Part shown: positions 4,449 to 50,617 of the stretch, in pieces
Layout: every line of letters starts with the position of its first letter
Position numbering within the stretch: the stretch's first letter is position 1
Origin: Symploca sp. SIO2C1
GTDB lineage: Bacteria > Cyanobacteriota > Cyanobacteriia > Cyanobacteriales > Coleofasciculaceae
Length of the DNA stretch: 58,533 bases
Assembly (NCBI GenBank): GCA_010692635.1
Contig: JAAHGL010000031.1
Location: forward strand, 1 to 58,533
Reading direction: 5' to 3'
Translations under genes and position numbers: made by a program
The notes under the pieces: generated by a model
What the model saw: the letters and a program-made list of their open reading frames with translations, nothing else
Databases searched by the model: none
What the model was told of the DNA's origin: nothing

Positions 4449-4556
4449 GGGTGAGCGACATTAGGGAAGGAATTTCTAGCGAAGTATCCTTTCAAATCAT
4501 TAGTTCTCCTTTGTTTCCTTATCTCCCTATCTCCCCACCCTTTTTTTCGCTCACCC
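4449..4556 (+). mobile_element. MITE-like element, GGGTGAGCGA family, copy 1
   Basis: 108 bp. GGGTGAGCGA (4449-4458) is inverted at 4547-4556 (TCGCTCACCC). It is flanked by GTTTGGGG at 4441-4448 and 4557-4564, an 8-bp direct repeat that would be 9 bp if one G was lost from the left G-run. The interior carries GAAGTATCCTT, ATCATTAGTTCTCCTTTG and a C/T-rich tract. A near-identical element lies inverted at 50494-50617. It encodes no protein, so it must depend on a transposase elsewhere. Confidence 0.8.
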
Positions 4557-31385: not shown

Positions 31386-31451
31386 GGGTGAAGCATTTGG
31401 GCAACAATTTAAGAGCAAACAGGAAATGTATTCTATCCAAATGCTTCACCC
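31386..31451. repeat. 66-bp palindromic element, copy 2
   Basis: GGGTGAAGCATTTGG (31386-31400) is perfectly inverted at 31437-31451. It has the same length and the same GCAACAATTTAAG interior start as the copy at 24146-24211. Confidence 0.75.
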
Positions 31452-31972
31452 TAATGTGAACCCATTATCCAAGTGCTTTACCCCAAAGTACCGAACGCGC
31501 CGAGGGTGAAGCATTCCGATACCAAGATCCAAGACAACCTCCGAGAGATTCTTCCTCGAATGCTTCACCCCTACAAGCTCATAATTTATCTAGAATTGCA
31601 CCAAATGCGATCGCATTCAATGTTGGGGCTTTCCTATTTAGGAGGCAATTTAAGAGCAAACACGAAATGTATTCTATCCAAATGCTTCACCCTAATGTGA
31701 ACCCATTATCCAAGTGCTTTACCCCAAAGTACCGAACGCGCCGAGGGTGAAGCATTCCGATACCAAGATTCAAGCAACCTCCGAGAGATTCTTCCTCGAA
31801 TGCTTCACCCTAATGTGAACCCATTATCCGAGTGCTTTACCCCAAAGTACCGAACGCGCCGAGGGTGAAGCATTCCGATACTAAGATCCAAGACAACCTC
31901 CGAGAAATTCTTCCTCGAATGCTTCACCCCTACAAGGTCATAATTTATCTAGAATTGCACCAAATGCGATCG
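31405..31972. repeat. Cluster of direct repeats built on the GAAGCATT palindromes
   Basis: A unit of about 200 bp (31405-31613) recurs at 31646-31810 and, shortened, at 31797-31972. Each unit contains GGGTGAAGCATTC inverted to GAATGCTTCACCC (31504/31558, 31745/31798, 31863/31917) around a 41-bp loop, followed by TATCTAGAATTGCACCAAA in units 1 and 3. No protein is encoded. From 31973 to 32126 nothing was recognised. Confidence 0.8.
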
Positions 31973-43942: not shown

Positions 43943-43958
43943 AGATAGCAATCGTATC

Positions 43959-44134
43959 GGGTGAGGTGAAAAAAGGTGTGGGAGAGCTTTTTTGAGTAAT
44001 GAGTAATGAGTAATGAGTAATGAGTAATGAGTAATGAGTAATGAGTGAAGAAACTTTTGTCAAATCCTCTTCCCTTGGAGCCCTGGAGCCTTCTGGCTTA
44101 TTTCTTGAAAGCCACTGTAAATTTCACCTCACCC
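43959..44134 (+). mobile_element. MITE-like element, GGGTGAGGTGAAA family, copy 1
   Basis: 176 bp. The 13-bp end GGGTGAGGTGAAA (43959-43971) is perfectly inverted at 44122-44134. It is flanked by the 9-bp duplication AATCGTATC (43950-43958 and 44135-44143). Inside are GAGAGCTTTTTTGAG, about seven GAGTAAT units (43994-44046), GAAGAAACTTTTGTCAAATC and TTCTTGAAAGCCACT. No protein is encoded. It lies in the nblR leader. Confidence 0.9.
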
Positions 44135-44165
44135 AATCGTATCTGAAATGTCGGGAGAGGGATCA

Positions 44166-45218
44166 CTATTGCTGAGGATAGATCAAGATTTTATAGGTAT
44201 CTGGGGTTGGCTCAATCGCTTGGGCAACAGCAGCAGCTAAATTTTGCAGAGGGTAGTGATCGCTAATTAAGGAATCTACATCAATTCGCTGATTAAATAC
44301 AATTTCATTAGCTAGAGACTGAAGTCTATAAGAGGAACTGTAACTGCCCATCAGCTCAATTTCCCGACGGTAGAGAATATTGGGATTAATCGGTATTTCT
44401 GCCTGCTCTGGGAATTCTGCAAAAAATAGAATCTTCCCTCCCTTGCGGGTACAGTCGAGAGCTTGGGAAAAAGCTTTTTCACTAGGAACTGCTAGTAGGG
44501 TTGTGTCAACTCCCATACCGTCAGTCAGGGAGAGGATTTTACTGGGTAAATCTGGATCTGTTGCATCAAAGGCAGCTTCAGCGCCGACAGCTTGAGCTTT
44601 TTCAATGCGAGAAGGGAGAAGATCAGTTGCGATCGCTCTACCACCAAAGTACTTTACTAGCATAATAAACATGAGCCCAATCGGACCAGCCCCCGTTACT
44701 AAGATAGTTTGACCAGGGGCAACTTGGACTTTTTTAACAGCCTTCAGACAACAATTAGTGGGTTCTACAAAACTGGCTTGTTCAAAACTCACATGATCTG
44801 GAATGGAAATCAACCCTCCGTTGCGTACAATATGACCAGGAACCTTCACATACTCAGCAAAACCACCGCCGCTAGGGGTAAAACCAGCGGTTGTGGTGAT
44901 GTTTTTATAAACCTCGCACATGGAGAAGTTGTCATTCAGGCAGTAGCTACAGCGCATACAGGGAATATGATGCATCACCACTATCCGTTGTCCTACCTGC
45001 CAACCAGTAACCTTTTCTCCCACTGCTGCGATCGTACCAGCTGTTTCATGTCCGTAAATGCGGGGTGGTTCGTAGAGGGGATAGCAAATTTTTTTGATAT
45101 CTGACTGACACAATCCCACAACTCGCACTTGTACCAACACCTCATCAGTTCCCAGTTCTGGTAGTGGTATTTCTTCATAACTGAGCTGATTAACCCCTCT
45201 GAATACCTGTGCTTTCAT
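44166..45218 (-). CDS. Zinc-dependent medium-chain alcohol/polyol dehydrogenase
   Basis: 350 residues from ATG 45218, which follows GGAGAG. The frame extends 43 codons further upstream, but that part (SLITHYSLLITQ) is translated repeat and not protein. The catalytic zinc ligands are Cys in VGLCQSD and His-Glu in YGHETAG. The structural zinc is held by four Cys in PCMRCSYCLNDNFSMC. The NAD(P) Rossmann loop is VTGAGPIGLMFIML. Sorbitol- or threonine-dehydrogenase-like; substrate unknown. It sits between two direct copies of the GGGTGAGGTGAAA element, each with its own target duplication. Confidence 0.88.
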   Translation of the reverse strand: MKAQVFRGVNQLSYEEIPLPELGTDEVLVQVRVVGLCQSDIKKICYPLYEPPRIYGHETAGTIAAVGEKVTGWQVGQRIVVMHHIPCMRCSYCLNDNFSMCEVYKNITTTAGFTPSGGGFAEYVKVPGHIVRNGGLISIPDHVSFEQASFVEPTNCCLKAVKKVQVAPGQTILVTGAGPIGLMFIMLVKYFGGRAIATDLLPSRIEKAQAVGAEAAFDATDPDLPSKILSLTDGMGVDTTLLAVPSEKAFSQALDCTRKGGKILFFAEFPEQAEIPINPNILYRREIELMGSYSSSYRLQSLANEIVFNQRIDVDSLISDHYPLQNLAAAVAQAIEPTPDTYKILIYPQQ

Positions 45219-45263
45219 TGTTACTTTCGGCTCTCCTTGGTTCAATAAACAGGACTTACAAAC

Positions 45264-45606
45264 GAGTGAGGTGAAAAAAGCTGTGGGAGAGCTTTTTTGA
45301 GTAATGAGTAATGAGTAATGAGTAATGAGTGAAGAAACTTTTGTCAAATCTCTTGACTCGGTGACTCGGTGACTCGGTAACTCGGTGTTTCTTCAGAGCT
45401 CCTGAGGAGCGCTTCGCGCCCCCAATTGAATGGGAGAAACAATTATCTTCCATTAGCTATTAGCCATTAGCCATTAGCTATTAGCCATTAGCCATTAGCC
45501 ATTAGCCATTAGCCATTAGCTATTAGCCATTAGCCATTAGCCATTAGCCATTAGCCATTAGCTTTGAGCGTGTTTCTTCAGAGCCACTATAAATTTCACC
45601 TCACCC
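45264..45606 (+). mobile_element. MITE-like element, GGGTGAGGTGAAA family, copy 2 with nested arrays
   Basis: 343 bp. Ends are GAGTGAGGTGAAA (45264-45276, one mismatch) and TTTCACCTCACCC (45594-45606). The flanking duplication is CTTACAAAC (45255-45263) versus CTTACAGAC (45607-45615). It shares GAGAGCTTTTTTGAG, the TAATGAG array (45299-45330), GAAGAAACTTTTGTCAAATC and the right end with copy 1. It also holds four TGACTCGG octamers (45354-45385) and a whole TTAGCCA composite (45385-45584, array 45451-45563). Confidence 0.88.
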
Positions 45607-45653
45607 CTTACAGACTCTTCGAGGTGTTTGAGAAGCCTACACTATACCTGTAA

Positions 45654-50493: not shown

Positions 50494-50617
50494 GGGTGAG
50501 CGAAAAAAAGGGTGGGGAGATAGGGAGATGGGGACATGGGGAAATGAAGAAACAAAGGAGAACTAATGATTTTCAAGGATACTTCGGTAGAAATGACAAC
50601 CAAAATTTCGCTCACCC
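50494..50617 (-). mobile_element. MITE-like element, GGGTGAGCGA family, copy 2
   Basis: 124 bp, inverted relative to copy 1. GGGTGAGCGA (50494-50503) is perfectly inverted at 50608-50617, and TGCCCGTCC flanks both sides as a 9-bp duplication (50485-50493 and 50618-50626). It has inserted into a GGGCATCCTGCCCGTCC segment, itself a member of a dispersed repeat family (compare 33065-33095). The interior matches copy 1 over most of its length. Confidence 0.9.

Follow-up and report, generated by a model that had tools for sequence, protein, structure and literature searches.

A transposon family with a built-in GAGTAAT heptamer array in Symploca sp. SIO2C1

The 58,533-nucleotide stretch of Symploca sp. 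SIO2C1 analyzed here (contig JAAHGL010000031.1; hereafter the window) contains two short inverted-repeat elements, each with an internal array of the heptamer GAGTAAT. The original prediction, made from this DNA alone, held that such elements carry heptamer arrays as cargo and thereby explain how these short repeats become dispersed. The observation behind it is real, and the evidence supports both elements as non-autonomous transposons that were inserted separately. They are very probably copies of one family of miniature inverted-repeat transposable elements (MITEs), here termed type A, in which the GAGTAAT array is built in and which an ISKra4-family transposase would move in trans. The type A MITE spreads GAGTAAT alone among the heptamers and does not serve as the general dispersal route of the other heptamer arrays in its own genome.

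A re-reading of the window sequence found the predicted coordinates of both elements to be exact, and their parts can be delineated as follows:

43950..43958, + strand: left copy of the target duplication of element 1, AATCGTATC
43959..44134, + strand: element 1, 176 bp, assigned to the type A MITEs by its tips, duplication and family membership
43959..43993, + strand: left arm of element 1, similar by eye to the ends that ISKra4-family insertion sequences of relatives have
43994..44042, + strand: (GAGTAAT)7 array, a built-in part of the family
44043..44071, + strand: middle module GAGTGAAGAAACTTTTGTCAAATCCTCTT of element 1
44072..44100, + strand: second variable zone of element 1, which in other copies holds short C/T-rich repeats
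44101..44134, + strand: right arm of element 1
44135..44143, + strand: right copy of the target duplication of element 1
45255..45263, + strand: left copy of the target duplication of element 2, CTTACAAAC
45264..45606, + strand: element 2, 343 bp, assigned to the type A MITEs, with extra repeats in the second zone
45299..45326, + strand: (GAGTAAT)4 array of element 2
45354..45387, + strand: TGACTCGG octamer array of element 2
45385..45584, + strand: TTAGCCA composite of element 2, bounded by the 15-bp direct repeat GTGTTTCTTCAGAGC
45607..45615, + strand: right copy of the target duplication of element 2, CTTACAGAC

Element 1 is bounded by matching 13-bp tips, GGGTGAGGTGAAA/TTTCACCTCACCC, and its duplication is perfect; the left tip of element 2, GAGTGAGGTGAAA, departs by one base from the one predicted, and its duplication shows a single mismatch. 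Over 16 nucleotides the terminal arms match at 94% in element 1 and 88% in element 2. An 11-bp core, GTGAGGTGAAA, has four exact occurrences in the window, all of them at the four element ends, and no other even with one mismatch allowed (chance expectation 1.26; two of 100 shuffles reached four). No open reading frame (ORF) of at least 100 amino acids was seen in element 1, and the sole one in element 2 is the listed start of the adjoining dehydrogenase ORF, neither element having a transposase. The GAGTAAT arrays of seven and four units, the octamers and the TTAGCCA array are present as originally described. Each element has its own flanking duplication, which supports the original claim of two insertions and not one composite transposon. 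Copies of the 15-bp direct repeat stand at 45385-45399 and 45570-45584, on either side of the TTAGCCA composite, and given its place between them this composite is probably a nested addition.

The family extends well beyond the window. The draft genome of this strain (8,166,785 bases in 470 contigs) contains the 13-bp tip 135 times, as against no occurrence of the reversed pattern, with 71 right ends (...GAAATTT) and 60 left ends (...GAAAAA). A 26-base sequence spanning the junction of left arm and array is found 107 times in this draft and 11 and 2 times in two congeners, with no match in the remaining 385 of 388 genomes sampled from the order, among which it is thus restricted to the genus. 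Of the 46 tip pairs in the fetched loci, 35 are flanked by a 9-bp duplication that is either perfect (25 pairs) or has a single mismatch; 33 of the 35 are type A and two belong to a sister type (L081, 162 bp; L125, 108 bp). The genome search with the 13-bp ends and the tabulation of 9-bp duplications had both been proposed with the original prediction. For further counts we used a sample of 60 regions totaling 709,237 bases, made up of the first 20 kb of every eighth contig, contig C470 and one stretch of C449; the window was counted apart from this 709-kb sample, and the two together amount to 768 kb. Within these 768 kb a duplication flanks 8 of 110 GGGTGA/TCACCC pairs, versus none at each of four shifted positions. 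A plasmid collection gave no match to the family, although records near this genome may be absent there, and a 17-base scan of a genome collection drew in at least 77 chance-like stretches from many phyla, of which an Oculatella locus inspected by eye was without a MITE.

Type A elements are typified by a constant order of modules: a left arm GGGTGAGGTGAAAAAAGGTGTGGGAGAGCTTTTTT, (GAGTAAT)n, the middle module GAGTGAAGAAACTTTTGTCAAATCCTCTT, a C/T-rich zone that varies between copies and, last, a right arm whose end reads ...CACTGTAAATTTCACCTCACCC. They are mostly 130-360 bp long, contain no transposase gene, have tips of the form GGGTGAGGTGAAA and make a 9-bp target duplication. In all 31 examined copies with exact left-arm and middle modules, GAGTAAT is at the same internal place; 21 of these have pure arrays of 1-11 units (mode 4), and the other 10 show point changes or inserted modules. 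As in BrickBuilt-like elements, therefore, the array occupies a fixed place between leader and tail while its unit number varies, and the term "cargo" has to be given up in favor of a built-in family part.

For five type A target sites we detected uninterrupted relatives, four in the same genome and one in congener G002. At L002 the type A element lies within a type B element (a MITE of the same tip group, described below); at L033 and L043 it lies in a hairpin-like dispersed repeat; and at L032 it lies in a TTAGCAA array, a case that is weaker because the site is repetitive. The fifth, L031, is uninterrupted at two places in G002 at 83-84% identity. A further locus, L102, contains a type A element nested in a type B element, each with its own perfect duplication. 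In the own-genome search 7 of the 35 joined sites gave matches across the junction in the fetched sequences, and three of these were set aside (E22, its own locus; E13, gapped at 73%; E33, repeat-like); alignments were inspected for E15, E16 and the start of E23, while E2 (L002) rests on the match table and the anatomy of the locus. The congener search covered 13 of the 35 joined sites; the two congeners gave 97 and 168 candidates, of which 40 were scored. A single site matched well across the junction, at the two G002 places, and the others gave a match on one side, a few bases across, or none. Twenty congener loci drawn in by flank matches, whose orthology is unproven, were all without the left, middle or whole right type A module, one of them (L364) giving just a weak 18-base match. 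Another of them, L358 in congener G001, has a type-B-like element near the corresponding place, found through its 16-base right tip; this element and L019, a type A copy of the present genome, adjoin one shared coding flank at nearly matching positions, and their duplications differ.

Given that the window elements lack a transposase gene and are not ISKra4 insertion sequences themselves, they are candidates for elements moved in trans. The search for a full-length insertion sequence led to L144 (genome G015), which is 1932 bp long, has inverted ends GGGTGAGCGAAAAAAAGCGTGGGG that match perfectly over 24 bp, and is flanked by a 9-bp duplication GTTATTGGG. Its 429-amino-acid ORF scores 281.7 bits against a cut-off of 205 for ISKra4 and 120.4 against 200 for ISLre2; a second ORF of 138 amino acids has no NCBIfam match. 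Matches to the L144 protein at an E value of 1e-40 or better were recovered in 7 of 388 genomes of the class. Ends of the L144 kind, with no matching duplication, are seen in L143 (G042) and L146 (G014), and L242 (G202), from one of the seven genomes of the class, is a 1377-bp element with similar ends, a 10-bp duplication and a protein 45% identical. The tips of type A are similar, not identical, to those of these ISKra4-family insertion sequences of relatives. Several elements combine one GGTGAAA tip with one CGAAA-type tip and have perfect duplications (L102, L133, L105, L011, L119, L116 and L358), L081 has mixed tips and a duplication with one mismatch, and in congener G001 a type A element, L052, has an insertion-sequence-like left tip GGGTGAACGAAA and a one-mismatch duplication. 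Such single elements with mixed tips and duplications suggest that both tip variants can work together. The wider Mutator-like group that includes ISKra4 is described as making 8- or 9-bp duplications and having inverted repeats of 18-39 bp (PMC3942029), and the 9-bp duplication of the MITE fits this range.

Certain observations weigh against this reading. No intact ISKra4-family gene was found in the 470 contigs of the strain's own draft, which gave three partial matches and none over the cut-off; one of these, L139, is an internally deleted element with related tips GGGTGAGCGAAAAAATGGTTGGGG and no duplication, and its protein has matches at 1e-10 or better in 7 of 97 genomes (own and relatives). 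A full-length insertion sequence with exactly GGGTGAGGTGAAA at both ends was not seen, and the perfect 13-bp inverted repeat of element 1 (16 bp at 94%) is shorter than the 18-39 bp given for the Mutator-like group (PMC3942029). Eleven of the 46 tip pairs are without a duplication. Two of these were mispaired over 750 and 1314 bp, and at L102 and L129, unduplicated in the first pairing, a duplication appears when the end is paired to another tip; the remaining pairs may be decayed or rearranged. One 91-bp element, L041, has the tips but neither the middle module nor the array. Finally, the window sites themselves show no clean empty allele: in both congeners they contain no MITE modules beyond 11- and 12-base chance-level matches, but the space beside the response-regulator gene is filled by other repeats and that upstream of the dehydrogenase has diverged.

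The absence of an intact ISKra4-family gene from the draft, together with the occurrence of 8- or 9-bp duplications across related Mutator-like families (PMC3942029), would also suit mobilization by another transposase class, such as ISLre2, IS256 or a lost insertion sequence. We consider this unlikely: the relatives' elements with similar ends and a similar duplication length belong to the ISKra4 family, and the L144 protein lies over the ISKra4 and under the ISLre2 cut-off, the other transposase families of the strain's own genome not having been searched. We favor an ISKra4-family transposase, that is, a member of the prokaryotic Mutator-like DDE group, as the enzyme that would have moved the type A MITEs in trans. 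Two observations speak for it: similar ends and 9-bp duplications are found in the ISKra4-family elements of relatives, and the two tip variants are connected through the mixed-tip elements that have duplications. Under this scenario the MITE would have acquired its GAGTAAT array before amplification, the array would be copied at each transposition, its unit number would shift through slippage or unequal exchange, and extra modules such as the TTAGCCA composite would have joined a few copies.

How much of the heptamer repertoire this accounts for was assessed in the sample. We take the heptamer arrays of this genome to be of the kind known in cyanobacteria as short tandemly repeated repetitive (STRR) arrays, and we counted them at a length of at least 21 bp. 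Of all such arrays, 10 of 238 lie in type A elements without the window and 15 of 268 with it, whereas for GAGTAAT the corresponding figures are 7 of 14 and 9 of 17; arrays of other units are in type A in just 3 of 224 cases in the 709 kb (Fisher p ~5e-8 versus 7 of 14). A stricter caller that requires two-armed elements, applied with the window included, placed 11 of 254 period-7 arrays in elements of the types tested, GAGTAAT in 7 of 17 cases and period-8 arrays in 4 of 17. Period-7 arrays are by far the most numerous in the 768 kb (254, as against 6, 17 and 8 of periods 6, 8 and 9). Arrays nevertheless show a tendency to lie within or next to various kinds of dispersed repeat, since at least one repeated flank was seen for 169 of 243 arrays versus 41 of 250 random positions, and both flanks recur together elsewhere for 47 of 243 versus 7 of 250.

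The share of GAGTAAT arrays in type A and, in a wider sense, this proximity to dispersed repeats are what could be said for the original view that heptamer arrays as a class were dispersed by riding in non-autonomous transposons. We judge that view quite improbable in view of the figures for the other units. What stands of it is the spread of one heptamer array by a MITE, attested by 107 junctions and separate duplications; the general explanation does not. The same is seen from the TTAGCCA composite, which is a separate high-copy repeat (81 matches among the best 40 of 376 first-look candidates): of 28 loci resolved from 30, two (the window and C7) are inside type A elements and one (L257) directly adjoins a fragment of such an element. 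Because the left end of the C7 copy is decayed and a duplication is lacking there, this copy is on its own no proof that the composite moved with the MITE. GAGTAAT-type matches, for their part, were recovered in 27 of 57 genomes (genus included), mostly over the array part of the query, and these include other genera and families in whose genomes the arm/array junction was not found. Because such matches extend beyond the genus while the junction does not, the array type is independent of the type A MITE, by which it was most likely captured.

Several side observations concern these repeats. The TTAGCCA composites (L249-L278) are modular, with similar GTTTCT..AGAG seams on both sides, and often adjoin a GAGTAAT unit. 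Four free GAGTAAT arrays, L281, L288, L306 and L310, have a common second leader (ATTGATTCGGGTTTTGAAGTAAT-like), for which reason GAGTAAT is taken to be present in at least one further dispersed repeat. In L288 (8135-8430) and L306 (14518-14813) we noted another MITE-like family of 296 bp, with GGGCTTGCTGAATAAG-like tips and 6-bp flanking repeats.

Two other explanations find little room. Elements 1 and 2 are co-oriented and separated by 1.1 kb, with a zinc-dehydrogenase gene between them, as would be expected of one duplicated block or of the ends of a larger transposon, but beyond their separate duplications their outer flanks (AATCGTATC, CTTACAGAC) differ and the family is present at many other places, and we regard such an origin as very improbable. 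That MITEs merely insert into pre-existing heptamer arrays and so seem to carry them is scarcely credible, for although the copy at C112:29713 is inserted in a TTAGCAA array with the duplication ATTAGCAAT, and pineapple MITEs are reported to insert into TA microsatellites (PMC8449440), GAGTAAT lies between the arms and inside the target duplication in all 31 copies with exact modules, and none of the 35 listed duplications is a GAGTAAT unit.

The window also contains two representatives of the type B MITE:

50494..50617, + strand: third element of the same tip group, a type B MITE of 124 bp, with GGGGAGAT-like octamers and a perfect duplication TGCCCGTCC
4472..4556, - strand: partial type B copy with left arm, octamers and part of the right arm

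The right arms of type B and related elements are homologous, all 21 pairs among seven arms scoring above the best of 100 shuffles. These sister scaffolds hold different 8- or 9-bp arrays in one corresponding position, immediately interior to the GTGGGGAG arm: GGGGAGAT (8 bp), GGGAGCTGA-like (9 bp) and GAAGCTGGG (9 bp), to which a congener adds GAGCAGAG (8 bp) and a shorter relative GGAGACGC (8 bp). The arrays may have been exchanged between scaffolds or may have originated in place. The comparison comprised 20 rows, eight of which have duplications with at most one mismatch, and all these arrays have a G-rich heart in common with the arm. A rather doubtful idea is that the arms of ISKra4-type MITEs are a birthplace of short tandem arrays, which would arise there, multiply by transposition and remain as free arrays once the arms have decayed. 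In one such free GAGTAAT array, L297, the connection to the middle module persists, although the contig ends there and the left arm may simply be unassembled.

One candidate feature of the family was rejected and another found no support. A 3.1-kb tip pair, L037 (G000:C24, 501-3619), was rejected as an autonomous element because a duplication is lacking and each end has the appearance of half a MITE, although no family search was made with the 928-amino-acid ORF that it encloses; this ORF is preceded and followed by halves of type A MITEs, one a right-arm half and the other a left-arm half, that share one orientation. A preference for insertion near gene starts, known for certain ISKra4 members, was not supported at the 19 sites with enough flank: by crude ORF calls two are within a called ORF, and the others face nine starts and seven ends on the left-arm side and seven and six, respectively, on the right. 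Two type A copies about 15 kb apart, L042 and L099 (G000:C190), have a common flank GCAGCGAAGAAG on one side, and while the duplication of L099 is GCGAAGAAG, L042 has none; this pattern hints at rearrangement between copies. At the end of a short contig, in L111 (G000:C275, first bases), a left arm and middle module of type A soon give way to strikingly G+C-rich sequence that is possibly chimeric or foreign. In the window, the zinc-dehydrogenase ORF (44166-45347, minus strand) as listed begins within element 2, and congener matches to it stop near 45218-45236; element 2 may add upstream start codons or a leader to this ORF. Elsewhere in the window, positions 31440-31929 hold a 118-bp unit that is repeated in tandem roughly four times (71% matches), and 38 HIP1 sites (GCGATCGC) were counted, in keeping with a cyanobacterium.

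Horizontal movement of TAACTGA repeats has been regarded as possible, with the mechanism described as not evident (PMC4679880). For one heptamer unit a vehicle can now be named, which is characterized by its tips, its 9-bp duplications and uninterrupted sites, and for which there is a candidate transposase family. Its reach in the sample, about half of the GAGTAAT arrays and approximately 1% of the others, can be tested unit by unit, and the differing arrays on related MITE scaffolds offer a natural series for how short arrays begin and change. Our searches of the literature on heptamers, STRR arrays, MITEs and ISKra4, which covered little of the subscription literature, gave no title that concerns a cyanobacterial MITE with heptamer arrays as an integral part.

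Tandem arrays as integral parts of a MITE are already known from Porphyromonas gingivalis (PMC4596501). The BrickBuilt and 464/PgRS MITEs of that organism have units of 23 nucleotides (41 in 464/PgRS) and number 19 copies in the described strain, and the authors state that every full-length leader or tail is accompanied by the repeat (PMC4596501). Type A resembles them in that a leader and a tail, each distinct, enclose a tandem array whose unit number varies, and in its many copies, which in P. gingivalis are intergenic (PMC4596501). It differs from BrickBuilt in its 7-bp units, which are also common as free arrays, in its 107 junction matches, in the uninterrupted sites that accompany its 9-bp duplications, and in having a partner class in the ISKra4 family. 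As far as our searches go, what is new is the 7-bp unit that also occurs in free arrays, the large copy number, the duplications with uninterrupted sites, the ISKra4 link and the differing arrays. With the ISKra4 group, or p-MULT 4, the window elements share similar tips, subterminal sequence and a 9-bp duplication, but unlike its members they are without a transposase, shorter than 350 bp and have a shorter inverted repeat (PMC3942029). Nezha, a cyanobacterial MITE cited in a review (PMC10969869), and the MITEs of Anabaena sp. 90, for which no insertion sequence of that genome has similar inverted repeats according to the accessible text (PMC3542288), are likewise short non-autonomous elements in many copies; unlike for type A, those portions of the two sources mention no internal tandem array (PMC10969869, PMC3542288). 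Heptamers are over-represented in Nostoc (PMC4692102). As in STRR heptamer arrays, the unit length of seven dominates the sample of the present genome; unlike STRR arrays generally, GAGTAAT is often bound into a transposon, whereas the other units rarely are.

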